Below, piece by piece: positions 5,544 through 33,068 of a stretch of DNA of 38,198 nt. Within the stretch, counting starts at the first letter, position 1; each line of letters starts with the position of its first letter. The notes under the pieces are model-generated. The model had not been told where the DNA came from. It saw nothing but the letters and a program-made list of their open reading frames with translations, and ran no database searches. The position numbers and the translations under genes were made by a program. The stretch lies in the IMG/VR virus record IMGVR_UViG_3300029448_000129, positions 1 through 38,198 of that record. One strand, written 5' to 3'. This stretch comes from a virus.

Positions 5544-5842
5544 TATTTTTCTTCTATTGTTTCTTCCCCAACTTCTACATTAATAATATTACTGTATTTG
5601 TTGGTTGCGTTATCTTTAAAAGCTTTAAAAGCTTCTGTTGGTTCTTTTTGACTTATTATCTTTACTTTATAAGTACCGGTACTAGAATCTGAATCTTGGG
5701 AAGCTACTGTTACTGTAGTTACTCCTGGTAATGCTCTTAATGCATCATCATACCCTTGATTACCTTCTTCTCCAAACTGCACCTTTATCATAGCTTCGAA
5801 GGTTTTAAAATCTAACTCTAAAAGTAACGGTATTAATTTCAT
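5543..5842 (-). CDS. Small conserved protein between neck genes
   Basis: A 99-residue protein starting MKLIPLLLELDFKTFEAM. Its first nine residues end LLLE, which loosely matches the tag seen on other proteins of this phage. The body has the pattern ALRALPGVTTVTVASQD, a strand (YKVKIISQ), a helix with EAFKAFKDNA, and the end VEVGEETIEEK. This beta-alpha-beta arrangement looks like a small ferredoxin-like domain. It lies between the gp13-type gene (gap of 1 nt) and the next neck gene (1-base overlap). A head-located structural or packaged role is an inference from position and the N-terminus. Confidence 0.6.
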   Translation of the reverse strand: MKLIPLLLELDFKTFEAMIKVQFGEEGNQGYDDALRALPGVTTVTVASQDSDSSTGTYKVKIISQKEPTEAFKAFKDNATNKYSNIINVEVGEETIEEK

Positions 5843-5843
5843 A

Positions 5844-6986
5844 TTATCCTATAAATATTGTCATTGGTACTGCTTTTAATGTAGTCTGTAAATCTTCAGC
5901 TTCTTGAGCTTTAGCAGACAATTGAGCTCCTCTAGACGATGCATCTAAGGTTTCTCTTAAATCAGTTAACAATGCTTCTTTTTCTGTTCTTGCATCCCCT
6001 AATAGATCTGCCTGATTTAAAGTAGTTTCTGATCCTGGTATAGGAACTGTGGTATATTTTCCTCTTATATAAGCTAGCATTTCTTTTGCTAAAGCTAAAG
6101 AGTAGTTAAATATCCACTGTCGTCCTACACTATTAATATAAGAGTACGTTGGATTTTCATAAGGTACTTCTGCCACTGTAGATATATTAGCTAAACTACT
6201 ATCAAAAGTTAAAGCATTTTTATCATTTTCTTTATAATAATGAAAATATAAACTTCCTGATGCGTTAGGAATTGGAAAAATTTTAAGTTGATTATTTACT
6301 ATTTCAAATGAGTAAGAAGACTTTCTAACTTGATCGTTAAATTCTATAGCTTGAAGTAATTGCATATCGTAAGAAACTGGCATTAACATAAAGTTAATTC
6401 CTGGGCTCATTGACCCAAATCCAAATGCGTCCATTAATGATTGAATACCAGTTCCAGTACCTGCATATGGGTCAAAGTATCTTTGAATAGCAGGCGGCGC
6501 TTCATAAAATACTTTACGTATTTCTATTTTACCTTCTATACTATTATCAGTAGCCCATTGGTTTAAATCGTAATTTTGAACCGAAGATGAAAGCTGTAAA
6601 GAACCTGTGTATTTAGTTATATTACCTCCTATACCAGCTTCTGTACCATAGTTTTTAGAGATCTGAACCATTTTGTTTAGGGTAGGTTCAACTACTCTAT
6701 TATTTACTGCACTACCTGTTGAAGCTCCTTCAAAGTTAATGTAGTTTTCTCTTATTTTGTATTTAAATACTTCGTTTCCATAGGTAGTAACAGCTTCTTC
6801 AAAGCAGGTATAGAAAGATCCACTTTCTAATTCTACATCCATTAAAGGAAAGCCAAGTCTAGACGCACAAAATTTTGCTACTTTATCTGCATCTTCTTGA
6901 AACTCAGTATCTGTATCGTAAAATCCAAAAGGTGTAGATCCTGTAGCAAACGTCGAACTACCTCCCCATATTGCAATATCAGCCAT
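5844..6986 (-). CDS. Neck protein, T4 gp13-like
   Basis: A 380-residue protein beginning MADIAIWGGSSTFATGSTPF. Features fitting the gp13 neck family of T4-like phages include the N-terminal region FYDTDTEFQEDADKVAKF with SRLGFPLMDVEL, and a C-terminal part with YINSVGRQWIFNYSLALAKE, IRGKYTTVPIPGSE and LNQADLLGDARTEKEALL. The (V/I)PIPG-x(6)-L-N-x-x-D-L pattern is the part I rely on most. In T4, gp13 and gp14 close the filled head and receive the tail. The gene follows the capsid gene after a strong terminator, with a TATTTATAAATA motif only 12 nt before its ATG. Confidence 0.65.
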   Translation of the reverse strand: MADIAIWGGSSTFATGSTPFGFYDTDTEFQEDADKVAKFCASRLGFPLMDVELESGSFYTCFEEAVTTYGNEVFKYKIRENYINFEGASTGSAVNNRVVEPTLNKMVQISKNYGTEAGIGGNITKYTGSLQLSSSVQNYDLNQWATDNSIEGKIEIRKVFYEAPPAIQRYFDPYAGTGTGIQSLMDAFGFGSMSPGINFMLMPVSYDMQLLQAIEFNDQVRKSSYSFEIVNNQLKIFPIPNASGSLYFHYYKENDKNALTFDSSLANISTVAEVPYENPTYSYINSVGRQWIFNYSLALAKEMLAYIRGKYTTVPIPGSETTLNQADLLGDARTEKEALLTDLRETLDASSRGAQLSAKAQEAEDLQTTLKAVPMTIFIG

Positions 6987-7063: not shown

Positions 7064-8662
7064 CTAGATAGTAGTTAAATCACTAATAAAGATTTTTCCG
7101 TAGAATTCAGGTCTGATCATCTTCTTAGCATAACGAGTCATTAAACCTTTTCTTGGAGTGAAGGTTTCAGGATCGTATACTAGAGGAGTCATCATTAATG
7201 GTACGTATGGAGCATAAACTGCACCAGTTTCTAAGAATTGAGATCCTCTATATCCTAACAACGCAATGTTCTCAGTCATATATGGGTTCTTGTATACTTG
7301 GAATCTGTTGTTTAATGCACCTACTTTCTGTACGCCCATTGCAAATTGATCCGCATCACCGTTTGTATTAGCAGCATATCCAGGAATTGATTCTAGGATA
7401 GTTGCAACAGTTGGAGATACTACAATAAAGTTAGCACCACCTCTTAACGTTTTTTGGTGAATCTTGTTAGATACTTTTTGGATTTTAGTCCCTAAAGTTT
7501 GGAACCATTGTCCTTGAGTATTATAAAAATCTGAAGTAGAAGTAATAAATGCACTTCCATTCCATATTTTATTGTTCTCAGCAGACCACTTTTCAGTAGT
7601 TTTAGCACCTAAGATCAACATATCTAAAATTTCTAGATCGATTTCCATTGAAATGTACTCACTAAGTAGTGAAGTCAATTCAGCTTCTGCATCGATTGAA
7701 TGATATGCGTTAAGATCTTGTGCAAATTCTGGAGTCCATTGAGCTTTCAATTTTCTTGTCTTAGCAACTACTGCTTCAGACTGTAATTGAACATCAATTT
7801 CAGGAATTGTGATAGAAGTATCAACTGCTGCTGTTGAATCAGCTTCAAAGTCTCCTCTTGTGTTGTCAGCAGGCTGTAAGCTATGCTTTACAGATCCGGC
7901 AAATTGCCCGTTAGCTGCAACAGTAATATCACTTTTCTTAATTACGAAAGTTACGTCGTTTCCAGATACAGTTGTAAGTTCAGGATAGTTAGTAATATCC
8001 GCAGAAGCAGATACTAATCTAAATGATCTTACAGCTTCTTTGTCAAATGCTACAGATGACATGTCTACTACGTATGTAGCGTAATCAGAAGGTAATTTTT
8101 CTTCGTTATAAGCAATTGAACTTGAAGCGGCAGATCCAGTAGCTTGAGCAGATACAGCTAAGGATTTTTCGTTTACAGAGTATCCGAATTTACCTGCACC
8201 ATAAAGACCGCCAGAAGCGTCAGTATCAGCTGCCATTTTAGTTCCACCTTCAGTTACGTTTCCGTACATATTGTCTCCGTCTGATCTTCCGCCTGTAGCA
8301 GTACCGTATTTAAAGTCTAAGTAAAATATTAGACCTGAAGGTAAGCTCATTGGTTGTACAGATACAAAGTCTTGTGCTACGATTTGAGAAAATACTTTTC
8401 TCACTAATGGAAGAGCAACTCCAGCCCACTGCTCACCAGCACCGGCAGTAAAGCCAGCTGATGTACCAGATGCACCAGTGTTGTTAGCCTCAGCAACGAT
8501 TTGCTTAGCTTGGTTTTCCAAAATCATAGCCATGTTAGCTGTTCCTTTTTCATCTAGTCCTTCTAGAAGTCCGGAAGCAGCCCATTTTTCAGATAGTCTA
8601 GTAGCATCAGCTTGTAAGCTTTTGTAGCCATTAGCACTTTCTAATAGGTTATTAATTTCCAT
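7064..8662 (-). CDS. 23: Major capsid protein, T4 gp23-like
   Basis: This 532-residue protein has the size and layout of T4-type major capsid proteins. The N-terminal pro-region (MEINNLLESANGYKSL, later LSEKWAASGLLEGLDE and MAMILENQAKQIVAE) is followed by the conserved AGEQWAGVALPLVRKVFSQI and VQPMSLPSGLIFYLDFKYGT segments. The C-terminal part has GGANFIVVSPTVATILESIP, GYRGSQFLETGAVYAPYVPL and KGLMTRYAKKMIRPEFYGKI. All are typical gp23 signatures. Maturation cleavage by the gp21-like protease is predicted after Glu58 (IVAE-A). It follows the scaffold gene by 25 nt and is bounded by a strong terminator. No Shine-Dalgarno precedes the ATG; the leader is A-rich. Confidence 0.97.
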   Translation of the reverse strand: MEINNLLESANGYKSLQADATRLSEKWAASGLLEGLDEKGTANMAMILENQAKQIVAEANNTGASGTSAGFTAGAGEQWAGVALPLVRKVFSQIVAQDFVSVQPMSLPSGLIFYLDFKYGTATGGRSDGDNMYGNVTEGGTKMAADTDASGGLYGAGKFGYSVNEKSLAVSAQATGSAASSSIAYNEEKLPSDYATYVVDMSSVAFDKEAVRSFRLVSASADITNYPELTTVSGNDVTFVIKKSDITVAANGQFAGSVKHSLQPADNTRGDFEADSTAAVDTSITIPEIDVQLQSEAVVAKTRKLKAQWTPEFAQDLNAYHSIDAEAELTSLLSEYISMEIDLEILDMLILGAKTTEKWSAENNKIWNGSAFITSTSDFYNTQGQWFQTLGTKIQKVSNKIHQKTLRGGANFIVVSPTVATILESIPGYAANTNGDADQFAMGVQKVGALNNRFQVYKNPYMTENIALLGYRGSQFLETGAVYAPYVPLMMTPLVYDPETFTPRKGLMTRYAKKMIRPEFYGKIFISDLTTI

Positions 8663-8687
8663 GGTTTGTTTATATTTTTAAGTTAAA

Positions 8688-9803
8688 TTAAATAATTCCA
8701 GCTAATTTTTGCATTCTACGAACAGCATCAGATACTTCTGCAATCACTTCTGGTTTACTAGCTGTCGTTCCAGTAGCTTTAGATGCAGATCCTTTGTGTT
8801 CTTTTATGCTTTCTTTTTTAGATACTTTTTTAGTACCTATGTTATCAGCAACAGTTTCAAAAACTAATTTTACTTCTTTAACTGTTTCTGCTTTATCAAA
8901 AGCAGCAATAACATTTACTTTTTGAGATTCAGATAAAGTATTAGACTTAAATATTTTGTTTACATATAATAATTTAGAATTAAGAATGTTAACTTCATTA
9001 AGCTCTTTTTTAAGAGTTTCAATAGTTTCTAAAGCTTGATCTAGTTCTGAGTTTTCTGCTTTATCTTCTTTAAGATCTGCTACTCTATTAATATTGTAGC
9101 TTTTTCCGTCAGATTGTGCTTCTACTTGATTAGATGTTTCTTCAGATACTTCTTCTTCTGATACTTTTTCTTCTTCTGATACACCGTCTAGTTCACGAAT
9201 TAGTTCATCTAGATCGATTTCTTCTTCTCCATCTTCCATTTCTGGTTCTTCTACTGGAGCTTCATCTCCCATTCCTTCAATATCACCAGCATCCATATCG
9301 TCAGCAGCAGCGTCTCCGCCTATTTCCTGAGCAATAATGTCTCTAATCATATCTTTGAATTGGTCAACTGATAAATCGGCTAGGTCTTCGTCACCTTCGG
9401 CTTCTTCTGAATGCTCAGCGTCGTCTGCAGTTTCTTCTGCATCATCCTCGGCTTCGTGTTCTTCTTCTGCTACTGCAGGCACCTCTGTTAGGTCTTCCTC
9501 CATTGCTTTGTCTTTGTCATCGTCGTCATGCATAGCTTCATCCATGTCTTTGTCATGGTGTTTAGCTTCTTCCATTTCGTCGTGGTCTTTAGATTTTCCT
9601 TCTTCAACCTCTTCTTCGACTTCGTTTACTACTTCTTCTACTTCTTCAGACTTATCGTCCATTTCTTGTAGTTTAGCAGCTAACATGTCTTTTAGATGAG
9701 GAGTTAAAGTCTCTTCTAAAGCTTCTTTAGCGTTAGCAATAGCGGCTTCTCTTACAGATTTAGCTTCAGCAATAGCTTGCTTGAATAAATCTTTATTTGC
9801 CAT
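8688..9803 (-). CDS. 22: Prohead core scaffold, T4 gp22-like
   Basis: A 371-residue, extremely acidic protein lying between the protease region and the capsid gene, as gp22 does in T4. Residues ~45-215 are dominated by Glu/Asp with Met and His patches. A helical part follows (LDQALETIETLKKELNEVN and onward). The protein ends SDAVRRMQKLAGII; a C-terminal RMQxLAG(I/L) is a recognised gp22 ending. T4 gp22 is shorter (~269 residues), and the acidic N-terminal half accounts for the difference. It forms the scaffolding core around which the prohead assembles and is then degraded by the gp21 protease. Its mRNA leader contains two perfect hairpins. Confidence 0.85.
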   Translation of the reverse strand: MANKDLFKQAIAEAKSVREAAIANAKEALEETLTPHLKDMLAAKLQEMDDKSEEVEEVVNEVEEEVEEGKSKDHDEMEEAKHHDKDMDEAMHDDDDKDKAMEEDLTEVPAVAEEEHEAEDDAEETADDAEHSEEAEGDEDLADLSVDQFKDMIRDIIAQEIGGDAAADDMDAGDIEGMGDEAPVEEPEMEDGEEEIDLDELIRELDGVSEEEKVSEEEVSEETSNQVEAQSDGKSYNINRVADLKEDKAENSELDQALETIETLKKELNEVNILNSKLLYVNKIFKSNTLSESQKVNVIAAFDKAETVKEVKLVFETVADNIGTKKVSKKESIKEHKGSASKATGTTASKPEVIAEVSDAVRRMQKLAGII

Positions 9804-9940: not shown

Positions 9941-10447
9941 TTATATAGCAGTTAGTATTTCTGCTCCAAGATTTGCTATATCTCTACCTTTAAGAGCTCC
10001 TTTTACTGCACTTAAAACTGCAGTGCCGGCATTTAAACCTTTTATAGCTTGAATAGCACCTATGCCTGCTTTAATTCCTAAACCTGCAAGTACAGCTATA
10101 AATAATCCTTTGGCTATAACCTCTCTTTTGCTTGGGTCTCTTACAAAAGGTGAGATTACTCCGCCAATTAACTTAATAAAATTTTTTTCATTAGTATGGG
10201 CCCAGTTATGTACTGCTTCTGCTTTGTCTGCAGCTTTATTAAACCCTCCTTTTCTCAATGCTTTACCAACATATTTACCAAGCATATCTAAAATAGTATT
10301 AGAAGCTAGTGCATATGATAAAAAACCAACGGCTGTTATGGCTATTTCATCTAATTTGCCATCTTCCATTTCTTTATCTAAAGCTTGTTTTAGCTGGGAT
10401 GCTAATTGTGCTTCATCACTTTCTAAAATAATACTTGATAATTGCAT
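9941..10447 (-). CDS. Tagged prohead or internal protein with Gly/Ala-rich hydrophobic end
   Basis: A 168-residue protein starting MQLSSIILE-S, one of four near-identical N-terminal tags in this window. The next region (DEAQLASQLKQALDKEMEDG) is charged and helical. Then come AVGFLSYALASNTILDMLGK and, near residues 113-150, a Gly/Ala-rich hydrophobic stretch with GLFIAVLAGLGIKAGIGAIQ and TAVLSAVKGALKGRD. It lies between the prohead protease and the scaffold, where T4-like phages carry core and internal proteins. I recognise relatives in marine myoviruses without a known function. The glycine spacing would allow membrane insertion, so a packaged, ejected protein is a reasonable guess, but only a guess. 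Confidence 0.65.
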   Translation of the reverse strand: MQLSSIILESDEAQLASQLKQALDKEMEDGKLDEIAITAVGFLSYALASNTILDMLGKYVGKALRKGGFNKAADKAEAVHNWAHTNEKNFIKLIGGVISPFVRDPSKREVIAKGLFIAVLAGLGIKAGIGAIQAIKGLNAGTAVLSAVKGALKGRDIANLGAEILTAI

Positions 10448-18142: not shown

Positions 18143-19192
18143 TTAAATATCAGTAGCATTCGGTTTATAATCTACTGGGTAGATACCGAATCTAGCATTT
18201 ACTATTCCCATATTCTTTCTATCCCTCCTAAAGGTAACATAAAGCATAGGTTCATAACCTCCTGATGGTATTTCAGGATTGTTTACTTGGTGGTTGCATC
18301 TAATTACGTAGTCCCCTGATTCTTGCGCTTCAAACTTTACAGGTCCTTGCAGTATTGCTTGACAGTTATTTATACCGAACTTATCTGATCCCTGTTCTAG
18401 ACCGTAGACGCTTTTACGTTTAGCTTCGTCGTTTAGAAGCGCTCTCTTAAAAGAAGTTTTCGGTTTAAGTTCTCCATCTGTTGCTTTTCTAACTGCCTCT
18501 ACAAAAGATTTAATTTCTTCATATTCTTCGAAACCTTTAAATCCGCTGTACTGTTGAAAGTGCTTAGGGGAGGAACCATCTTTATGTGACAGGAAAATTA
18601 CAGGTCCTTGATCAGTATTTAACGTAAAGTCAGCTTTCGGTGTACCTTTTACTGTTGCTGCACTAGTTACTTCCTTATACTCCTTTCCTCCTAATTCAAC
18701 ATCAATAGAACCTATCTCTTGCAATTCTTTATTAATTCCAGCTAATGCTATGTCTTCTTGAGCTGTACCAGATCCTTTTCCTTTTCCTCCAAAAGCAGGA
18801 GTTTTTAATAAACTGTTTATTCCAATATCTTTACCGTCTACTTTAAAAAAAGGAAAGGCATTTACTCCAGAACCAGCTAACTTTTTTATTCCGTCAATAT
18901 CTGAGTTTTGGAAGAATTCAGCAAATTCTGGTTTTGCAAAATCTATAACCTTTTCTTCTCCGGAGCTTAAAGCTATAGGTTCCTTATTAGAGATAAGGTC
19001 ATAAAGTTTATTTAGTCTAGGACCTCCGTATTTTCTTAAATCACCGAAAGATAAAATATTATAATCTCCTTCAGTTAGACTAAACCCAAACATAGATTCA
19101 AACAAAGCCATATCCTCTTGACTGTTAATGTCAGGATATCCTTTCTTGGTCTTATATGACCATTCTAGTATAGCTTTGTCTATGAGATTCAT
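18143..19192 (-). CDS. Unknown protein upstream of terminase, possible nuclease fold
   Basis: A 349-residue protein starting MNLIDKAILE-W, loosely resembling the phage's N-terminal tag. The central part has SAATVKGTPKADFTLNTDQG followed by PVIFLSHKDGSSPKHFQQYS. A Lys-Ala-Asp, a strand and then a hydrophobic strand ending in (S/E)xK is the layout of some PD-(D/E)XK restriction-type folds, and phage relatives often show KxD...ISLKK. This is suggestive only. The C-terminal part has NNCQAILQGPVKFEAQESGD and MLYVTFRRDRKNMGIVNARF. It sits directly before terminase and one base after the previous gene's stop. A packaging or packaged role is possible. Confidence 0.45.
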   Translation of the reverse strand: MNLIDKAILEWSYKTKKGYPDINSQEDMALFESMFGFSLTEGDYNILSFGDLRKYGGPRLNKLYDLISNKEPIALSSGEEKVIDFAKPEFAEFFQNSDIDGIKKLAGSGVNAFPFFKVDGKDIGINSLLKTPAFGGKGKGSGTAQEDIALAGINKELQEIGSIDVELGGKEYKEVTSAATVKGTPKADFTLNTDQGPVIFLSHKDGSSPKHFQQYSGFKGFEEYEEIKSFVEAVRKATDGELKPKTSFKRALLNDEAKRKSVYGLEQGSDKFGINNCQAILQGPVKFEAQESGDYVIRCNHQVNNPEIPSGGYEPMLYVTFRRDRKNMGIVNARFGIYPVDYKPNATDI

Positions 19193-20226
19193 TATGCTTC
19201 TGGTTCTTCTCCTGGTTCTTCGAAATCTATTTCTTCGCCACCTAGATCAGCTCCACCTTCTTCACCGCCTTCATCTCCTCCTAGATCATCTGCGGTGGTT
19301 CCTCCTCCTTCTTCGCCAGGAAAGTCTCCTCCGCCACCGCCACCGCCTCCGGTATCAGTATCAGCAGGCTCGCCTTCTCCAGCTCCACTCATTGGTCCTT
19401 CTTTATATAAAATTGCTAATTTGTCTAATGCTTGTTGGTAATCGTCAATTTTATTTATATAGTATCTTTTACCAAGTATTTGAGCCTCGAATCCAGCTCC
19501 TAACCACTTCATAATATACTCTTGACCATTTTTTAAATTTATTCTAAATTCAGTAGGTCGTGGTGAAATCCAATCTATTGAGTCGACAAACTCTTTAAAA
19601 TCTTCTGTCTGTAATTTTATAAGGGAAGCTTTTAGAGTAGGAAACTTGGCTAAAATAGTATCAGTAGCATCTTCTAATATAGTTTCTTCAGGTGCTGAAG
19701 TATCTGGTTCTTCTTCTGGAGTTGGCTCTTCTTCCTCTTTAATATCATCAAGCATAGATTCATGAATAAGACTAGCATGTATTTGAAAATCCTCAAAAAG
19801 AGATTCTAATGTAGCTCTACTCCTTATAAGTGCATACTGATCAGGGCGTTCTACTCTAAGGTATCTTTGTAACTTTCTAAAATTAGTTTTTATTAACTCA
19901 AATAACTCTCTTGCAGCTTTATCAGTTCTAACATCTTTATCCCTCATTAATACTTTAATGTCTTGTACTATATCATCATAGTCACTATACATTTTATCAA
20001 ATGAAGGTATAGCTATTACCTTATGACTTATTTGACCAGTACTTTTATTTTGACCATCAAACTTCATATAGCGAGTCATATCATTACTAAAGAAATCTTT
20101 AGGGTGTAATGGTCCGTGACGTTTTTCTATAGCCTTTTTAAAAGCAGCAGGAAGATCTTTTGGTTTAACATTTTCTTCTTGTACTTGAGCGTATGTTTCT
20201 AAAATAAGTTTTTCTAACTTGTGCAT
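19192..20226 (-). CDS. Tagged unknown protein with Gly/Glu-rich tail, 344 aa
   Basis: The N-terminus MHKLEKLILE-T matches the (I/L)xE-terminated tags of this phage. The first ~165 residues are helical and charged. An acidic linker (IKEEEEPTPEEEPDTSAPEE) leads to a compact domain near residues 190-270 with FKEFVDSIDWISPRPTEFRI and EYIMKWLGAGFEAQILGKRY. The last ~70 residues are nearly all Gly, Glu and Asp, with a run of eight glycines. Such a tail is disordered. The function is unknown. It lies between the 819-residue mosaic protein and the gene preceding terminase. An internal head role is inferred from the tag only. Confidence 0.5.
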   Translation of the reverse strand: MHKLEKLILETYAQVQEENVKPKDLPAAFKKAIEKRHGPLHPKDFFSNDMTRYMKFDGQNKSTGQISHKVIAIPSFDKMYSDYDDIVQDIKVLMRDKDVRTDKAARELFELIKTNFRKLQRYLRVERPDQYALIRSRATLESLFEDFQIHASLIHESMLDDIKEEEEPTPEEEPDTSAPEETILEDATDTILAKFPTLKASLIKLQTEDFKEFVDSIDWISPRPTEFRINLKNGQEYIMKWLGAGFEAQILGKRYYINKIDDYQQALDKLAILYKEGPMSGAGEGEPADTDTGGGGGGGGDFPGEEGGGTTADDLGGDEGGEEGGADLGGEEIDFEEPGEEPEA

Positions 20227-24435: not shown

Positions 24436-25104
24436 CTATTTTTTTTTCCAGATTTCACCTCTTCTACATCTAACTACTGCTCCTGAAGCATAAGCTGATG
24501 GCCAAGTATCATATTCTCTTTTGGCTCGTCTAGTACATCTATCATCTTTTTCTTCTAAAGTGTTTTCATTTTGCATTTCAGCTATAGTACCTACAATTAG
24601 GTTACGTATATCTTCTTTAGTTACTTTTTTGTAACCAGATCCATAAGGTGCTGCTTTGCCATCTTGGGGGTCAGATGTTTCAGTATATTGGGTCACTTTT
24701 GGTACTTTAGATCTTGTTTTATCTTTTGGATCACTTTTACGTGCTCCTCTTTCTTTAGCATCTTTAGACATTCTACCTTTAACTAAATTACCAGACTTGG
24801 TAAAGTAGTGTCCTGCTGGTGCTTCTTTAGTTTCTTTTTTTACTGTTGCTTTTTTAGTATTTTTCACGACTGTTTTTCCTTTAGCTCCTGCTTTCTTTTT
24901 CTTTCTAGCAGTGGCGGCTCTTTGGCCTTTTGTTAAACTTTGTGCTTTTGCTTTTGGTAAACACCTGTCAGGGTTCTTTTTATTTTTAGAAGTACCACAA
25001 GGTCCTGCTATATTGCCAGAAGAAGAGATACGAACCCATTTATCTTTTTTAAACCAGTCTCTTAACGACTCTAATGTAATATTTTGTATTTGTTTACTTG
25101 TCAT
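24436..25104 (-). CDS. Basic multi-module protein of unknown function, 222 aa
   Basis: Three modules are visible. Residues ~15-65 have KWVRISSSGNIAGPCGTSKN and KNPDRCLPKAKAQSLTKGQR, a Cys-containing module that I know from other phages. Residues ~100-165 have GHYFTKSGNLVKGRMSKDAK and are again basic. The C-terminal module, DDRCTRRAKREYDTWPSAYA-SGAVVRCRRGEIWKK, is another short phage domain of unknown role. The N-terminus MTSKQIQNITLE-S could be a gp21 cleavage site. High positive charge and modular make-up suggest a DNA-associated packaged protein. The start overlaps the stop of the membrane coiled-coil gene (ATGA). Confidence 0.5.
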   Translation of the reverse strand: MTSKQIQNITLESLRDWFKKDKWVRISSSGNIAGPCGTSKNKKNPDRCLPKAKAQSLTKGQRAATARKKKKAGAKGKTVVKNTKKATVKKETKEAPAGHYFTKSGNLVKGRMSKDAKERGARKSDPKDKTRSKVPKVTQYTETSDPQDGKAAPYGSGYKKVTKEDIRNLIVGTIAEMQNENTLEEKDDRCTRRAKREYDTWPSAYASGAVVRCRRGEIWKKK

Positions 25105-25457
25105 TGTCCATCAGAATACATTATTAATATCCTTACTATGACTGTTGTTAGTATACCGAATATAATCCATAATGCTTTATTGACTCCTGATTTCCAAGAT
25201 TGCAATTCAGATAGTTGTGAAATATAAGTATCGTATTCCCTTCTGCGTGTTTCTTGTTCTCTTCTAAATTCAGAATTTTTGTTAGTATTTACTATAACTC
25301 CATCATCTGGATTGAGTAGAGTAAATTTCAAATCAGATAAATCGTCCTTCATTTTTTCGAAGTCCTTAGCCATCTGTTTTAACTCACCATTCGGCATGTG
25401 AGTTTTAATGTGCTTGATTTCAGATAATACTGATTCAAGTATGTCTTTTTGAGTCAT
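25101..25457 (-). CDS. One-pass membrane coiled-coil protein, possible lysis accessory
   Basis: A 118-residue protein. Residues 1-90 are charged and helical (MTQKDILESVLSEIKHIKTH, later FRREQETRRREYDTYISQLS), consistent with a coiled coil. Residues ~95-112 form one hydrophobic segment (ALWIIFGILTTVIVRILIM) followed by a short tail YSDGQ. The layout and the motif L-x-S-W-K-x-G-x-x-K-A-L-W-I-I resemble XhlA-type hemolysin-associated proteins found near phage lysis genes. No endolysin is recognised nearby, so a holin, spanin or other membrane role is uncertain. A TATTTATATTAA motif lies 9 nt before the ATG. Confidence 0.5.
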   Translation of the reverse strand: MTQKDILESVLSEIKHIKTHMPNGELKQMAKDFEKMKDDLSDLKFTLLNPDDGVIVNTNKNSEFRREQETRRREYDTYISQLSELQSWKSGVNKALWIIFGILTTVIVRILIMYSDGQ

Positions 25458-26060: not shown

Positions 26061-26598
26061 AACCTAACTCTTTTAATTTTTGTATAACGTGATTAACATC
26101 GCCGTTTTTACATCTAATAGCTATACCGCCTTTTGATGTCCATTCGTTTATATTTGACTTTTTATCATCTATTAATATACTATTTTCATTTGCATATCTT
26201 TGTTTATCTTTAGAATAAGCAAATATAACTTTAGGTTTAGGATTAAGATTATTTTTTACCCACAGGTTTTTTCCTAATCTAGAATTATTATCTCTTGAAG
26301 GAGAGGTAAGTAAATCAGGTTGATAAGGTTTAATAAAGTTCCATAACTGTTCTCCTTGAGGCATCCAAGGCATACCTATCCAAAATCTAACTCCTACTTC
26401 AACATCAACAAGATTCCAGAAAGCTGGTAATCCTTTTGCTTTTTCATATTCTTGAGGGTGCATTCCTGTAAAATGTTCAAACCTACTTTCAAAATCAGTA
26501 AGGACTCCATCCATATCACAGTAAATTTTATACGGTGGTTTTTCTTTAACCTCTGGTATAGGGTACGCTTCTAATAAATCAACTAAACTTTTTTTCAT
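26053..26598 (-). CDS. HAD-family 5'-nucleotidase-like protein with tag-like N-terminus
   Basis: A 181-residue HAD phosphatase. Motif I is YCDMDGVLTDF (Asp28, Asp30). The middle has LLTSPSRDN as motif II, K-rich helices, and ILIDDKKSNINEWTSKGG as motif IV. The LIDDxxxNxxxW pattern fits the small 5'(3')-deoxyribonucleotidase and 5'-nucleotidase group, which removes phosphate from nucleoside monophosphates. The N-terminus, MKKSLVDLLE-A, resembles the capsid-targeting and cleavage tag seen on other proteins here. Its substrate cannot be told from sequence. It lies between a zincin and the zinc-ribbon gene. Confidence 0.7.
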   Translation of the reverse strand: MKKSLVDLLEAYPIPEVKEKPPYKIYCDMDGVLTDFESRFEHFTGMHPQEYEKAKGLPAFWNLVDVEVGVRFWIGMPWMPQGEQLWNFIKPYQPDLLTSPSRDNNSRLGKNLWVKNNLNPKPKVIFAYSKDKQRYANENSILIDDKKSNINEWTSKGGIAIRCKNGDVNHVIQKLKELGYE

Positions 26599-26963
26599 TA
26601 GGCTACTAATTTCCAGTTTTTTTCTTCAGCAAATGCTGCAATCTCATATGGGTGATCTGAATAACTGTGACCCATGTTATAATACCTAGTCATCCATGAA
26701 GGAGACTGTAAGTAATGTTGATATTCGTGAACAATAGTTTGAGCTAAATGTTCTGCATCTTCTATGTTCTTATAATATATAACTATAGTGTTATAGTCAA
26801 AGATGTATTCAGCTTCAGGATTATCATCTTCTGTATAAACTGAATGTACATATGGTTGAAACTCTATATAGGGAGTAGTTTCATGATGTTTACTGTGACC
26901 GTATAGGTTTACACAGTTTTCTAAGTAGTTTTCAGCTAATCTTTTTGTAGTTCGTAAATGCAT
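26598..26963 (-). CDS. Small zincin-type metalloprotease-like protein, 121 aa
   Basis: The core is TIVHEYQHYLQSP, an HExxH zinc motif (His79, Glu80, His83). A third ligand is likely Glu107 in HPYEIAAFAEE. HExxH followed ~25 residues later by a (Y)ExxA helix is the layout of minimal zincins. The first residues, MHLRTTKRLAENYLEN, contain xAE-N and could be a weak tag. The protein is soluble and has no signal peptide. Whether it cleaves peptides is unknown. It lies next to another gene with an HExxH motif, suggesting a shared origin. A TATTTATGTATA motif lies 11 nt before the ATG. Confidence 0.6.
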   Translation of the reverse strand: MHLRTTKRLAENYLENCVNLYGHSKHHETTPYIEFQPYVHSVYTEDDNPEAEYIFDYNTIVIYYKNIEDAEHLAQTIVHEYQHYLQSPSWMTRYYNMGHSYSDHPYEIAAFAEEKNWKLVA

Positions 26964-26995: not shown

Positions 26996-28276
26996 TTATC
27001 CTTCATCTCCAACTTTTTTAACTGAATCTTCCCAGTTTCTAAAAGTAATATTACCTTTTAAATACGCTTCTTTTTCTATTTCTAATAAATTTTCATCTTC
27101 ATTAGTATTAGTAGTACCTATATCTTCTAATCTACCTTCTAGGTTTTGTATATGATGAATCATTTCGTGTACAAACGATCTAACTATGTCTTTAGGATGT
27201 CTACCTTCTACATATAAAACTATTTCTTTTACATTAGGATCATAATATGCAGTTCTACCAAAAAAGTTTGCTGCATTAGTTTCATCCTTAATAGTTTTAA
27301 CTTCAGGTAACGGAGTAACATTCATACCTTCATCTATCATATATTCTAAAACGGAAGCTATATGTTTTGTATATTCTGGGATATCTTGTTCTTCTTTTAA
27401 TACGTCTAATCTTTCACCTTTTAAGTATGCTTTAATAACTCTTGGTTCAGTAAACTTGTACAAAATATCGTTAATAAAGTTTTTTATAAAATCAGAAGCT
27501 TTATCTTTTTGGTCTGAAAAATAAATTCCAAGTTGTTTCTTTATATCATCTTCTTTAACTTTAGAATCTATTGATAGTCTTTTTATAGCTCTATCTATTT
27601 TTTCAGTATCACTTTCAAAAAACGAAGCTTCAGATACAAACATTTCTTCAAAAAGATTTTCCATCTTTTCGTTCATTATTTCTGATATTATATTATCTTT
27701 AAGCATCTTTAATATAGATAGCAACTCTTCTCTGTTTAGTTGTTCAGGAAAAAAATCTCTTAATTGGTCTAAATTACCACTTAAAGCAGCTTGCCTTAAT
27801 TGTGAAGCTCTTACATTATTTCCTTTAGCAGCAGGTATAACTAAACCTTGTACATGAGGGGTATTTGTAAAAGTAGTAATTCTTCTTAAATCGATTAAAT
27901 CTTCTTCACTTCTTATTCCTGTAATAGCATAAAAGTTATCATTAGTATTTGCTTTAGCATAATCTTTAGCAGCAAACATAGGATTCTTTTCTCCATCCAC
28001 AACTTCTATTCCAGGTAAATATTTAGAGTATATTTTCCATATCGCTATAGATTCTCCTTTAGTTATTCCGTTTCTTTCTCCTCCTCCAGGAAACACTATT
28101 ACTTTATTTATTTTATCGACTATACTTTTTTTTCCAGAAAGAGAAGATGCACCAGCATCTTTATAATTATCTTTTGTATATACCTGACCATTATGAGTAC
28201 CGTTAAGTAAACTCTTAACGACTTCAAAATGACCTCTATGAGGTGGTTTAAATGCTCCTGGGTATAGTGCTATCAT
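26996..28276 (-). CDS. Nucleotidyltransferase-zincin fusion, 426 aa
   Basis: Two unlike domains are joined. Residues ~1-185 are an HxGH-type nucleotidyltransferase: YPGAFKPPHRGHFEVVKSLL (His13, His16), then GVTNTPHVQGLVI-like strands and NNVRASQLRQAALSG, which resembles the (S/T)xxR lid of NMN adenylyltransferase and cytidylyltransferases. Residues ~280-426 carry DIVRSFVHEMIHHIQNLEGR with an HExxH motif (His370, Glu371, His374) and a later LLEIEKEAYLKGNI that may supply the third ligand. The middle is helical. The reaction could be NAD synthesis or nucleotide-sugar transfer. The zinc part may or may not be active. It overlaps the kinase gene by 4 nt. Confidence 0.7.
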   Translation of the reverse strand: MIALYPGAFKPPHRGHFEVVKSLLNGTHNGQVYTKDNYKDAGASSLSGKKSIVDKINKVIVFPGGGERNGITKGESIAIWKIYSKYLPGIEVVDGEKNPMFAAKDYAKANTNDNFYAITGIRSEEDLIDLRRITTFTNTPHVQGLVIPAAKGNNVRASQLRQAALSGNLDQLRDFFPEQLNREELLSILKMLKDNIISEIMNEKMENLFEEMFVSEASFFESDTEKIDRAIKRLSIDSKVKEDDIKKQLGIYFSDQKDKASDFIKNFINDILYKFTEPRVIKAYLKGERLDVLKEEQDIPEYTKHIASVLEYMIDEGMNVTPLPEVKTIKDETNAANFFGRTAYYDPNVKEIVLYVEGRHPKDIVRSFVHEMIHHIQNLEGRLEDIGTTNTNEDENLLEIEKEAYLKGNITFRNWEDSVKKVGDEG

Positions 28277-29205
28277 AAAAACGCTTGTACTTTTTGATCG
28301 ATTTCCTGAGGTGATGAATGTTGTAATAAGTCTTGAAACGTAGGATTAAATACCATATCGGCAATACTATTTAAAACTGCATCATTTTTTTCATCACTAC
28401 TAACTTTGCCGTCTCTATATTTTTTTACTGCATCTTTAAGTTTATCTTCTCCAGGTCCAGTACCTATCTTTTGATAAGTTTTTAAGAAAGCTGTTTTAAG
28501 AGCTTTATCTTCTGATCTGTTATCTTTGTTCCAATCTACGTTTACTACAGCTTTGTTAAACTCTTGCTCTTCTTCTTGAGACATTACTACTGGTTTAAAG
28601 AAAGAGCTTTTACCTGCTCCTGTTTTTTCATTATAAGCTTTTAAGTAATCTTTTATTCCTGTAGTACCGTTTTTAGCAGCAGTATTAAATGCTTCTATTT
28701 CTTTTTTAAATTCACCACCTCTGTCATTTACAAAAATAGAAAGATTACCTTTAAGTTTCTTTTTAAAGTCTCCTATCTTTTGATAAGCATTTCTCCAAGT
28801 AGAGAATACTGATGAAGCAGGAATGTTTCTACCTCTTTGAAAATTAGATATATAAGATATCATTGGATGAGTATATACTAAAACCATATAAACATCGTAA
28901 CCACCTTTAAGTAGTTTATTTAAATTTTCATCAAACTTAGCACCAGAAGCAGTAGTATCCCATACTAAACTAATTTTATCTTCAGCTGCTGCAAGTACGT
29001 CTTTTTCAACTTGTCTACTAGCTGCTCCTAAATTATTAAAATAAGGATGGTCTTTATCTTCTACGTACTTATCAGGATTAAACTGAGTTAAACTATCAAG
29101 GTTAAGTTGATTAAGTAAATAAGTTTTACCCGAACCTGCTCCACCTGCCATTATTACAGCTTTAGGTTTGTTACGATCTTCTAATATAATGGTTGATAGT
29201 TTCAT
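28273..29205 (-). CDS. Tagged zeta-toxin-like P-loop kinase, 310 aa
   Basis: The protein starts MKLSTIILE-D, one of four near-identical tags in this window. Residues 21-28 are a Walker A loop (GGAGSGKT). Next come FNPDKYVED and ISLVWDTTASGAKFDENL, the Asp-containing strands that bind substrate in zeta-toxin and related kinases. VYTHPMISYISNFQRGRNIP is an Arg-rich helix resembling the lid. Zeta toxins phosphorylate UDP-N-acetylglucosamine; other members phosphorylate nucleotides or RNA ends. The C-terminal ~110 residues are helical and have no recognised fold. A tagged kinase would be a candidate for injection into the host with the DNA, by analogy with T4 Alt; this is inference. Confidence 0.7.
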   Translation of the reverse strand: MKLSTIILEDRNKPKAVIMAGGAGSGKTYLLNQLNLDSLTQFNPDKYVEDKDHPYFNNLGAASRQVEKDVLAAAEDKISLVWDTTASGAKFDENLNKLLKGGYDVYMVLVYTHPMISYISNFQRGRNIPASSVFSTWRNAYQKIGDFKKKLKGNLSIFVNDRGGEFKKEIEAFNTAAKNGTTGIKDYLKAYNEKTGAGKSSFFKPVVMSQEEEQEFNKAVVNVDWNKDNRSEDKALKTAFLKTYQKIGTGPGEDKLKDAVKKYRDGKVSSDEKNDAVLNSIADMVFNPTFQDLLQHSSPQEIDQKVQAFL

Positions 29206-29206
29206 A

Positions 29207-30097
29207 TTAATTATTATTATTTCCTCTTCCTCCCCTACTGGACCTACTTGAGCTTCTTGAGCTAGAGTTAGATGATCTTGAAGACGAATAGTTACTTCTT
29301 ACATTAGGTGTTGATCTATAATTACTTCTAGTACTATTATAGTTAGTTGAATTAGTATTAGGTCTTCGGTTTATTCTAATATTATTATTATTTATAGAAT
29401 TATTACCTCTTATAATTACATCTGGTGCATTATTAGGTTTTGAATATACTCTTATAGATCTTCCTCTATTTTCTCTTTTAATAGTTTCTACTACATTATC
29501 GATATTACTTTTGATATTTCTCCTAGGTTGATTATAATTAACAATATTACTGTTATTTGCTACATTAGCAACTTTTCTGCCAAAATTATAATTAGCTCCT
29601 CTCCTACCTCTGTTATAAGATACATTTTCTATATTACGGTTCCAAGCTACATTATATCTATTATTCCAATTATTAAACCCAAAACCGTTAAATCTCCAAT
29701 GGTTCCAACCATAGTAATAATTATTAAATCCAAAAGGGTCTCTCCAGTTATAACCAAAATTACTATAAGGATAATCAAATGCCCAATTCATCCAAAAGTT
29801 ATGACTGTTAATATACATATCAAATCTACTATATGGATTCCACATGTTATATCTATTAAGTGCACGGTTATTAAAATACCAACTGTAAGGTTGATTCATA
29901 GCATATTGAGCGAAATCCCATCTGAATCTAAAATCAGTTTGAAACTTCCTTGCTAATTCAAATTCGTTATCAATTACATCGACTGCTATTTCGGTTCCGT
30001 TAGGTCCGTATATAGGATCATAATAAACTGTAGATACTCTAAAGGTTGAGCAACTTGTTAAAAAAATAATGAGAGATATAATTAATAGTTTTTTCAT
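29207..30097 (-). CDS. Phage-encoded lipoprotein, Asn/Tyr/Trp-rich, 296 aa
   Basis: A signal peptide (MKKLLIISLIIFLTSC) ends in a lipobox LTSC with Cys16 as the lipid-modified residue. Residues ~20-75 form a short ordered part (VYYDPIYGPNGTEIAVDVID). Residues ~75-180 are crowded with Asn, Tyr, Trp, Phe and Arg, for example YNMWNPYSRFDMYINSHNFW. The last ~60 residues are Ser/Arg/Asn-rich and disordered. Aromatic/Asn-rich lipoproteins like this are common in Flavobacteriia. The Cys is not followed by the acidic residues of the known flavobacterial surface-export signal, so it may stay periplasmic. A role in blocking superinfection is possible. A promoter-like motif lies just upstream. Confidence 0.8.
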   Translation of the reverse strand: MKKLLIISLIIFLTSCSTFRVSTVYYDPIYGPNGTEIAVDVIDNEFELARKFQTDFRFRWDFAQYAMNQPYSWYFNNRALNRYNMWNPYSRFDMYINSHNFWMNWAFDYPYSNFGYNWRDPFGFNNYYYGWNHWRFNGFGFNNWNNRYNVAWNRNIENVSYNRGRRGANYNFGRKVANVANNSNIVNYNQPRRNIKSNIDNVVETIKRENRGRSIRVYSKPNNAPDVIIRGNNSINNNNIRINRRPNTNSTNYNSTRSNYRSTPNVRSNYSSSRSSNSSSRSSSRSSRGGRGNNNN

Positions 30098-30876
30098 ACT
30101 TTTACTGTTGTTGGGTAGCTATTATAAATAGGTTCTGTATTAGGGTTCTCTAATTCATATAGTTTATAAATAAGTCTAAACAGTTCAAAGTTTTTATCTA
30201 TATCATCTATCTGTAATAGCTTCCAGCCTTTACCTTGTATAACTTTCTTTTGTTTAGAAGGGCCTCGAGTCTGAGCTTTTAACCAAAGAATACCTGTACG
30301 CTCTATCTTTATTCCCCTGCTCTCTTCTAATGCTTTTGCATAAGAGGCTAATTGTAGGTCGTATGATTTATGTATGCTATTAGACGTTTTTAAATCTATC
30401 AGCCACACTTGATCGTTCATTTTACAGACTATATCTGCAGTACCGGCAAATTTATATTTATCAGACCATACGAATTGCTCAGAAGATATCAATTCAGGTT
30501 TATAAGTTTTCCAAAAATCAGCGAACTTAAGAATCATCTCCCATACAATCTGAGAATATTTAGCTTTACCGAAATCATCCATCCAAGATACTTCTTTTCC
30601 TTCTACTAGCTGTTCAGCTGCTTCATGTACTTGAGTACCTTCTTTACCTGCTTTCCTCATTATAAGGTCGGCGTTATGCCCAACATCCTTCATCCATGTT
30701 TCGAAGAACTTATTTTTGGGCATGTATTGGAGTATAGTAGTTACGGACGGGTAATATACTCCTTCGCCTCGCTTATAGACCCTACGGTCTAAAAAATTTA
30801 TCTGCTTTAACTCGGGGTTAAAATCTAATCTTTTTTTCTCATTTTGTTCGAGAATATTCATTCCTTGTTTAATCAA
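30094..30876 (-). CDS. RecB/Cas4-like PD-(D/E)XK nuclease, 260 aa
   Basis: All parts of the RecB-type nuclease core are visible. An early His is in KEGTQVHEAAEQLVEG (His84). Glu133 is in ISSEQFVWS. Asp148 is in KFAGTADIVCKM. The Asp161-x-Lys163 pair is in VWLIDLKTSNS. The following QLASYAKAL (Gln175) is the QxxxY helix typical of RecB, AddB and Cas4. No iron-sulphur Cys cluster is present. Phages use such exonucleases in recombination or DNA-end processing. The start lies 14 nt after the upstream gene's stop. Its last codons contain the promoter-like motif for the lipoprotein gene, and the two genes overlap by 4 nt. Confidence 0.85.
   Translation of the reverse strand: MIKQGMNILEQNEKKRLDFNPELKQINFLDRRVYKRGEGVYYPSVTTILQYMPKNKFFETWMKDVGHNADLIMRKAGKEGTQVHEAAEQLVEGKEVSWMDDFGKAKYSQIVWEMILKFADFWKTYKPELISSEQFVWSDKYKFAGTADIVCKMNDQVWLIDLKTSNSIHKSYDLQLASYAKALEESRGIKIERTGILWLKAQTRGPSKQKKVIQGKGWKLLQIDDIDKNFELFRLIYKLYELENPNTEPIYNSYPTTVKV
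30119..30132 (-). promoter_or_regulatory. Candidate promoter for lipoprotein gene
   Basis: Sense strand CCTATTTATAATAG, inside the nuclease gene's last codons and 21 nt before the lipoprotein ATG at 30097. It matches the recurrent motif and would allow the lipoprotein to be expressed separately. Confidence 0.4.
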
Positions 30877-32547: not shown

Positions 32548-32748
32548 CTATATTTCGTTGTTATGTAAAAGATCGCCGATAGCTGCAGTAACAGTTTGTT
32601 CTAAAAGAGCTTTATTATCTATATCTAGATAGTCGTCTAGCTTAATAGTAATAGCTTTAGCTAATTTAGTTACATCAGCATCGGATAGATTTATTTCCTC
32701 TCTTACTACATACTTATTATTTTCTAAAATTATTTTTGCTAGTTTCAT
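32548..32748 (-). CDS. Small tagged protein, 66 aa
   Basis: The first ten residues are MKLAKIILE-N, nearly identical to the tags at 33068 and 29205. The remaining ~57 residues are one acidic helical domain (EEINLSDADVTKLAKAITIK, then LDDYLDIDNKALLEQTVTAA). No function is recognised. Its start codon shares one base with the stop of the 106-residue tagged gene, so two tagged small proteins are encoded back to back. If the tag is a capsid-targeting sequence, cleavage after Glu9 would release a ~57-residue peptide inside the head. Confidence 0.6.
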   Translation of the reverse strand: MKLAKIILENNKYVVREEINLSDADVTKLAKAITIKLDDYLDIDNKALLEQTVTAAIGDLLHNNEI

Positions 32749-33068
32749 TATAATTTATAATTAAAATTTATTCTAGGGTAAAAATATCTATCACCATCGT
32801 CATCGAAATCATTAGCATCTTGTGTTATTTCAAATCCTTTAGATTGTAATATTTTTATTATTTTTTTAAACACTGAATCATCAACTCTGCTTCTTAGTCT
32901 AAACATTACATTACCAAACCCTTTTCCTTTAAGTGGATCGTCATCTTCTCTATCTTGATCGTAAACGCCCATGCTTACAAAAATATTATCCATATTAAAT
33001 TGATTTCTCAACTCTTGTTCAAGAGATTCAGCAGTTTTATTTTCGAATATGATATCACTTAATTTCAT
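32748..33068 (-). CDS. Small tagged protein, 106 aa
   Basis: The N-terminus MKLSDIIFE-N is one of the four matching tags. The body has ESLEQELRNQFNMDNIFVSM, GFGNVMFRLRSRVDDSVFKK, a helix IIKILQSKGFEI and the end DGDRYFYPRINFNYKL. This alternation of strands and one long helix suggests a small alpha/beta domain. I do not recognise it. The start overlaps the stop of the 45-residue basic gene as ATGA, and its own stop overlaps the next tagged gene by one base. Confidence 0.6.
   Translation of the reverse strand: MKLSDIIFENKTAESLEQELRNQFNMDNIFVSMGVYDQDREDDDPLKGKGFGNVMFRLRSRVDDSVFKKIIKILQSKGFEITQDANDFDDDGDRYFYPRINFNYKL

Follow-up and report, generated by a model that had tools for sequence, protein, structure and literature searches.

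Lipoprotein gene, neighbouring genes and promoter-like motif

The window, i.e., the whole 38,198-base stretch of DNA analysed here, is an IMG/VR virus record and represents a fragment. On its minus strand, a lipoprotein gene lies between the genes for an exonuclease and a P-loop kinase, with the following features (basis in parentheses):

30094..30876, minus: PD-(D/E)XK exonuclease, upstream gene (PHROG 298, E=1.5e-42)
30120..30131, minus: promoter-like CTATTTATAATA in the exonuclease codons P-I-Y-N-S, 23-34 nt before the ATG (TATTTAT enrichment, codon conservation)
29207..30097, minus: lipoprotein gene, 296 aa, family A1 (type I body), with a non-overlapping tail of its own (ORF; viral relatives)
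30053..30097, minus: signal peptide, residues 1-15 (sequence; kept in all relatives)
30050..30052, minus: lipobox Cys16, preceded by LTS (invariant in the A1 alignment)
29768..29971, minus: conserved aromatic core, predicted helical, residues 43-110 (A1/A3 alignments; AF2)
29609..29767, minus: Asn/Tyr/Trp-rich linker, predicted disordered, residues 111-163 (sequence; pLDDT)
29591..29608, minus: conserved GRRG(S/A) motif, residues 164-169 (R166 invariant in A1)
29210..29419, minus: basic Ser/Arg/Gly/Asn-rich tail, final 70 residues (composition; overlap in relatives)
28273..29205, minus: Zeta-toxin-like P-loop kinase, downstream gene (Pfam PF06414, E=2.9e-12)

The preliminary description placed the lipoprotein ORF at the correct coordinates; the gene lies on the minus strand, with the ATG at 30097 and the stop codon ending at 29207 in the ORF call, and its start shares ATGA with the exonuclease stop (4 nt overlap). 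The N-terminal signal peptide and lipobox, which that description had recognized, read MKKLLIISLIIFLTS followed by C16 and are borne out, Cys16 being unchanged across 24 aligned relatives. S-T-F-R directly follows Cys16, with no acidic residues there, and residues 4-22 are the sole hydrophobic segment of the protein. The Asn/Tyr/Trp-rich body and the Ser/Arg-rich tail described before were both found: N+Q make up 22% of the mature protein, and the final 70 amino acids (S+R+G, 50%; N+Q, 27%) contain no D or E and have a net charge of +12. The window core (residues 43-110) reads ELARKF..DFRFRWDFAQYAMNQPYSWY...RFDMY..SHNFWMNWAFDYP; the family core consensus is FxLxxKLRTDFxFRWDFAQYAMNQPxSWY...RPYNRFDVYxxSxxFWxDWAxNYP, followed, in this order, by GRRGS, RVYxNPNN and the basic S/R/G/N tail. 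In the predicted structures, confident helix is limited to the conserved core. The full-length AF2 model is weak (pTM 0.32), with pLDDT of 74-84 over most of the core and below 50 from residue 113, and the model of an 83-residue domain is moderate (pTM 0.67, mean pLDDT 76.5). A fold search with the domain model returned no PDB match and no significant BFVD match.

The nearest cultured relative of the window is Flavobacterium phage immuto (vB_FspM_immuto_2-6A, Immutovirus), which has a syntenic primase-exonuclease-NadR-5'NT-terminase block and protein identities of 69-76% (terminase, 76%; major capsid protein, 69%; exonuclease, 70%), in agreement with the earlier mention of a flavobacterial counterpart; the phage is of flavobacterial type and marine, and T4-type head genes are present in the window as well. 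Immuto infects the laboratory strain Flavobacterium sp. LMO8. However, immuto has no lipoprotein at this site, and gp089, encoded after its exonuclease, is a different protein, which the kinase search did not reach; a comparison of the lipoprotein profile to the immuto genome gave no match. The annotated holin and endolysins of immuto sit elsewhere in its genome.

The order exonuclease-lipoprotein-kinase characterizes the window-like context A. At least four other contexts were found, and in contexts B-E, the lipoprotein is present and an adjacent kinase is absent. Several further proteins were observed in these neighbourhoods. Several unrelated contexts encode, close to the lipoprotein, a small HExxH-like protein with a weak, SprT-like Pfam match (window 26598-26963; L035 4660-5049; L056 4748-5137; L060 7263-7649; L062 7288-7674; L070 4782-5180). 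In another phage group, the gene for a protein with a signal peptide and a DKGH motif, like that of DNA/RNA non-specific nucleases, lies some 3 kb upstream of the lipoprotein gene (L055 2253-2936; L060 2131-2751; L062 2274-2906). Locus L056 has two more lipoproteins (8567-9136 and 5715-5990) beside the family member, one of which begins with the acidic CKKEEEE, as is typical of surface-exported lipoproteins. A 118-aa protein of the window (25101-25457), with a TM segment at its C-terminus and a weak 'hemolysin' match (phrog_937, E=0.036), is kept in context A and is possibly holin-like. N-termini like MKLSxIILE are common in the window, with [LI]xE at residues 3-16 in 18 of 43 proteins, compared to 12% of random internal 14-mers; examples on the minus strand are 28273-29205, 9941-10447, 32548-32748, 32748-33068, 19192-20226, 18143-19192, 7064-8662 and others. 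Since such a start resembles the T4 capsid-targeting/prohead-protease signal, several of these proteins, the Zeta-like kinase among them, may enter the head during packaging.

A promoter-like site overlapping the previous gene had also been noted. The sequence CTATTTATAATA at 30131-30120 (minus strand), within the last exonuclease codons, contains one copy of TATTTAT. There are 18 copies of this motif on the gene strand, and 10 of them are located 15-50 nt upstream of gene starts (3226, 5857, 7010, 10495, 14660, 16559, 22722, 25478, 26987 and 30130, minus strand), compared to 0.7 expected by length. This upstream count was not reached in 500 trials with shuffled segments, and none of the 7 antisense copies falls within the 15-50 nt upstream zones. 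TATTTAT is thus a candidate core of a phage promoter. The portal gene is among the genes preceded by it, as are further structural genes, suggesting that late expression is likely. The motif is found upstream of the lipoprotein in 71/71 relatives in the exonuclease-kinase slot. The exonuclease codons that carry it keep the commonest codon in 0.82-0.98 of the relatives (conserved-column mean, 0.70), and those for P-I-Y-N rank fourth of 257 four-codon windows by codon conservation, which is support and not proof because the peptide itself is conserved and the sequences are related. Locus L144 keeps TATTTAT though it has no lipoprotein, suggesting that the element serves the downstream cluster and not the lipoprotein alone. 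The promoter-like site therefore stands as a TATTTAT copy in the exonuclease end, and not as a sigma-70 promoter or a gene-private element. Sigma-70 promoters show no excess (18 sites versus 20.3 expected) and no site at this place; the T4-late promoter TATAAATA was rejected as well, being weakly in excess and mostly antisense.

Distribution of the family, body replacement and tail overlap

In IMG/VR, we detected relatives at 30 loci with the single sequence and at 53 loci with a profile; 22 records were checked, and each of these contigs has a single lipoprotein copy. Apart from the signal peptide, the lipoprotein has no match in Pfam, PHROG or NCBIfam, and a PHROG 'Rz-like spanin' match (E=0.15) was rejected as confined to the signal peptide. 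No relative was found among 50,697 phage records or in cultured phages, by a PDB sequence search, or in two scans of GTDB genome contigs (~85,000 bacterial and archaeal genomes), which depend on short peptide patterns; PADLOC reported nothing for the lipoprotein. As judged by these searches, the family is phage-only and previously unnamed. The homology search proposed in the preliminary description thus had a mixed outcome: there are phage relatives, in IMG/VR only, and none in bacterial genomes or cultured phages. Transfer of a host gene, also raised there, is unsupported, given 53 viral loci in several phage backgrounds and no relatives in GTDB genome contigs. Recent capture of a host lipoprotein would fit the resemblance, which we assume, to some Asn/Tyr-rich Bacteroidota lipoproteins with a basic tail; however, both genome-contig scans were empty, and the phage distribution of the family is broad and diverse, so that such capture is very improbable.

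In the exonuclease scan, almost every one of the 80 best loci has a lipoprotein gene at the site beside the exonuclease; in L144, the slot is empty and the kinase is present. Many slot loci have a shorter, different-looking type II body, and with the tails removed, type I and type II bodies are distantly homologous (hhalign probability 97.7). In L088, L089 and L090, an extra 183-aa ORF is found between the exonuclease and the type II lipoprotein. The kinase-slot rows L010 and L037 are context-B artefacts and were excluded from the statistics. On the kinase tree (a quick tree, with the overlap region left out), the body type changes at least 10 times. For example, the kinases of the window and L099 are 92% identical, both in the first 78 codons and downstream, yet the lipoproteins are of opposite, distantly related body types. 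Such frequent swapping of bodies is what one would expect of a gene whose specificity keeps changing.

In 58 of the 71 distinct slot loci, the last 71-79 lipoprotein codons are overprinted on the beginning of the kinase gene in a different frame (+2 relative to the kinase), extending 215-239 nt into the kinase gene. The expected number of stops in the second frame was obtained by redrawing synonymous codons from the same gene. In the 58 overlapping sequences, which are related and therefore not independent, there are 0.05 stops per 74 codons, compared to 8.8 expected; the segment that follows has 8.9, and the 13 non-overlapping relatives have 10.2. The kinase frame is real too, because the kinase starts with ATG and has Walker A inside the overlap in 58/58 cases, and kinase amino-acid conservation in the overlap is on a par with the rest (0.73 versus 0.68). 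In the overlap, third-position T drops from 38% to 10%, and the ratio of Leu codons CTN:TTR is 456:109, compared to 322:437 downstream. Hydrophobic residues constitute 13.6% of the overprinted tail versus 28.4% in a simulated stop-free frame; the tail is richer in S/R/G and N/Q than the simulated one and close to the tails of non-overlapping members. This composition is indicative of selection on the overprinted protein beyond stop avoidance. A slower change of silent sites in the overlap was not found in overlap-overlap pairs (same-codon share, 0.59 versus 0.60); the recoding signal shows between overlapping and non-overlapping relatives, not within overlapping pairs. Taken from the reading frames, one DNA stretch encodes two proteins in most slot relatives.

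The window itself has no overlap: the lipoprotein stop is 1 nt before the kinase ATG, and the overprint frame has 17 stops within the kinase start (first ~78 codons). In the comparison to the overlapping L099, conserved kinase residues have the same codon in 33% of cases in the first 78 codons versus 67% downstream. On the kinase tree, the window and L001 are placed within groups of relatives that have the overlap, and the overlap state changes 8 times, 5 of these changes being forced by well-supported branches (these parsimony counts carry no direction). The simplest reading is that the window lineage would have lost the overlap, and recombination could have contributed to its absence. The window tail, though non-overlapping, has the same composition as the overprinted tails. 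We consider the chances evenly balanced that the 5' end of the kinase gene serves as a constant 'shared tail exon' read out of frame, so that any incoming body would be automatically completed by a basic disordered tail, whereas lineages that lose the overlap, such as that of the window, would end with a tail of like composition. Dozens of relatives in which a single stretch specifies a catalytic P-loop and also a disordered envelope tail, next to several lineages without the overlap, represent a natural experiment, through which one can test how much the composition of the tail matters and what overlapping genes cost. Such tails are expected to be missed or shortened by gene callers with a penalty on overlaps.

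Possible functions of the lipoprotein

We tentatively propose, with somewhat less than even confidence, that the protein is an outer-membrane lipoprotein, expressed late and facing the periplasm, which protects progeny phages from re-adsorption or re-infection much as T5 Llp does. The lipoprotein would be made late, exported by Sec and acylated, and Lol would then deliver it to the outer membrane, where it would sit in the inner leaflet and face the periplasm. The aromatic core may dock on an envelope partner, e.g., an outer-membrane receptor or channel, while the basic arm would span the periplasm. The infected cell and its debris would be made unusable to sister phages through receptor inactivation or blocked DNA entry, an action like that of T5 Llp that implies no membership in the Llp family.

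We count in favor of this proposal the invariant lipobox, the lack of an acidic export signal and the motif common to structural genes. There is no D or E at +2 to +6 after the Cys in 87 of 89 family members. A surface-export signal of Bacteroidetes lipoproteins has been described (PMC5080379), and the lack of such an acidic signal predicts a periplasm-facing position, assuming a Bacteroidota host. Lipoprotein-mediated exclusion is an established mechanism, in which receptors of the outer membrane are reached from the periplasm (PMC9586334). The lipoprotein is accessory and not universal, the slot being empty in L144 and immuto; an envelope lipoprotein that is phage-only and non-universal, with a frequently replaced body, points to an envelope function that bears specificity, e.g., exclusion or protection from re-adsorption. 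We count against the Llp-like reading that neither homology nor a matching fold links the protein to Llp, Cor or anything else known, and that peptidoglycan hydrolases within ~2 kb of the lipoprotein in L035 and L063, two distant contexts, fit lysis equally well.

These hydrolases are the main hints of a link to lysis, which is the main rival to the Llp-like reading. In L035, an Amidase_2 endolysin is encoded ~1.8 kb downstream of the lipoprotein, and a one-TM protein also follows within ~3 kb; in L063, a tape-measure/endolysin-like gene lies ~1.2 kb upstream, and a secreted transglycosylase-like protein, recognized by sequence inspection, flanks the lipoprotein as well. A lysis factor of this kind would be an outer-membrane lipoprotein that helps to break this membrane open when infection ends, acting like an unusual o-spanin or by means of its cationic disordered tail in a disruptin-like way. 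The strongly basic tail and the TATTTAT motif common to structural genes are consistent with this role, and two-component spanins are characterized by an out-of-frame overlap that involves the lipoprotein gene (PMC6139136). However, the overlap partner is a soluble P-loop kinase and not an N-terminally anchored coiled coil, and no anchored i-spanin is adjacent in the fragment window, where the neighbouring exonuclease and kinase have no TM segment; a more distant partner, beyond the ends of the fragment, is conceivable. A C-terminal TM segment is absent, so the lipoprotein is not a u-spanin. Furthermore, the protein is about 300 aa long, its body is often swapped, and it is absent from immuto, with its lysis genes annotated elsewhere. 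A literature search that combined spanins and Bacteroidetes yielded nothing. We regard the lysis role as rather unlikely.

Known zeta toxins target peptidoglycan precursors, and the lipoprotein may be an envelope-takeover partner of the Zeta-like kinase, both acting on cell-wall/outer-membrane assembly, with the overlap coupling their synthesis. The gene order kept in context A and the high frequency of the overlap among slot loci are in line with such a partnership; however, the absence of an adjacent kinase in contexts B-E suggests that the pair is not obligatory, and L144 has the kinase without the lipoprotein, which makes this partnership improbable. A virion component or assembly factor, suggested by the structural genes among the neighbours and their shared promoter-like motif, is highly implausible, as the signal peptide and invariant lipobox direct the protein to the envelope and there is no PHROG structural match.

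Comparison with known systems

Lipoproteins of Bacteroidota phages and exclusion in this group are almost unstudied, and the family described here is missing from standard libraries and cultured phages. Bacteroidetes LES surface lipoproteins have a signal peptide II, as does the window protein, and presumably the same host phylum; unlike them (C-X-K-(D/E)2, SDDDD), the window protein has no acidic signal after the Cys. The out-of-frame overlap with a neighbour, and the presence of overlapped and separated members in one family, are shared with the overlapped class of Rz/Rz1 spanins. In contrast to two-component spanins, the partner is a cytosolic P-loop kinase, no i-spanin was found, context A is not a lysis cassette, and the 3' end of the lipoprotein gene overlaps the 5' end of its partner.

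Llp is a small protein of about 60 residues that is expressed early, unlike the window gene with its motif common to structural genes. Compared to Llp and Cor, the window protein is much longer (~300 aa, about four times Llp), has a long disordered basic tail, and has no fold similarity to them, nor any sequence or profile similarity as judged by Pfam, PHROG, NCBIfam and 50,697 phage records. Like them, it is phage-encoded, has a signal peptide II and a lipobox, is predicted to face the periplasm, and is the product of a non-essential accessory gene; Llp-like superinfection exclusion by the lipoprotein is possible.
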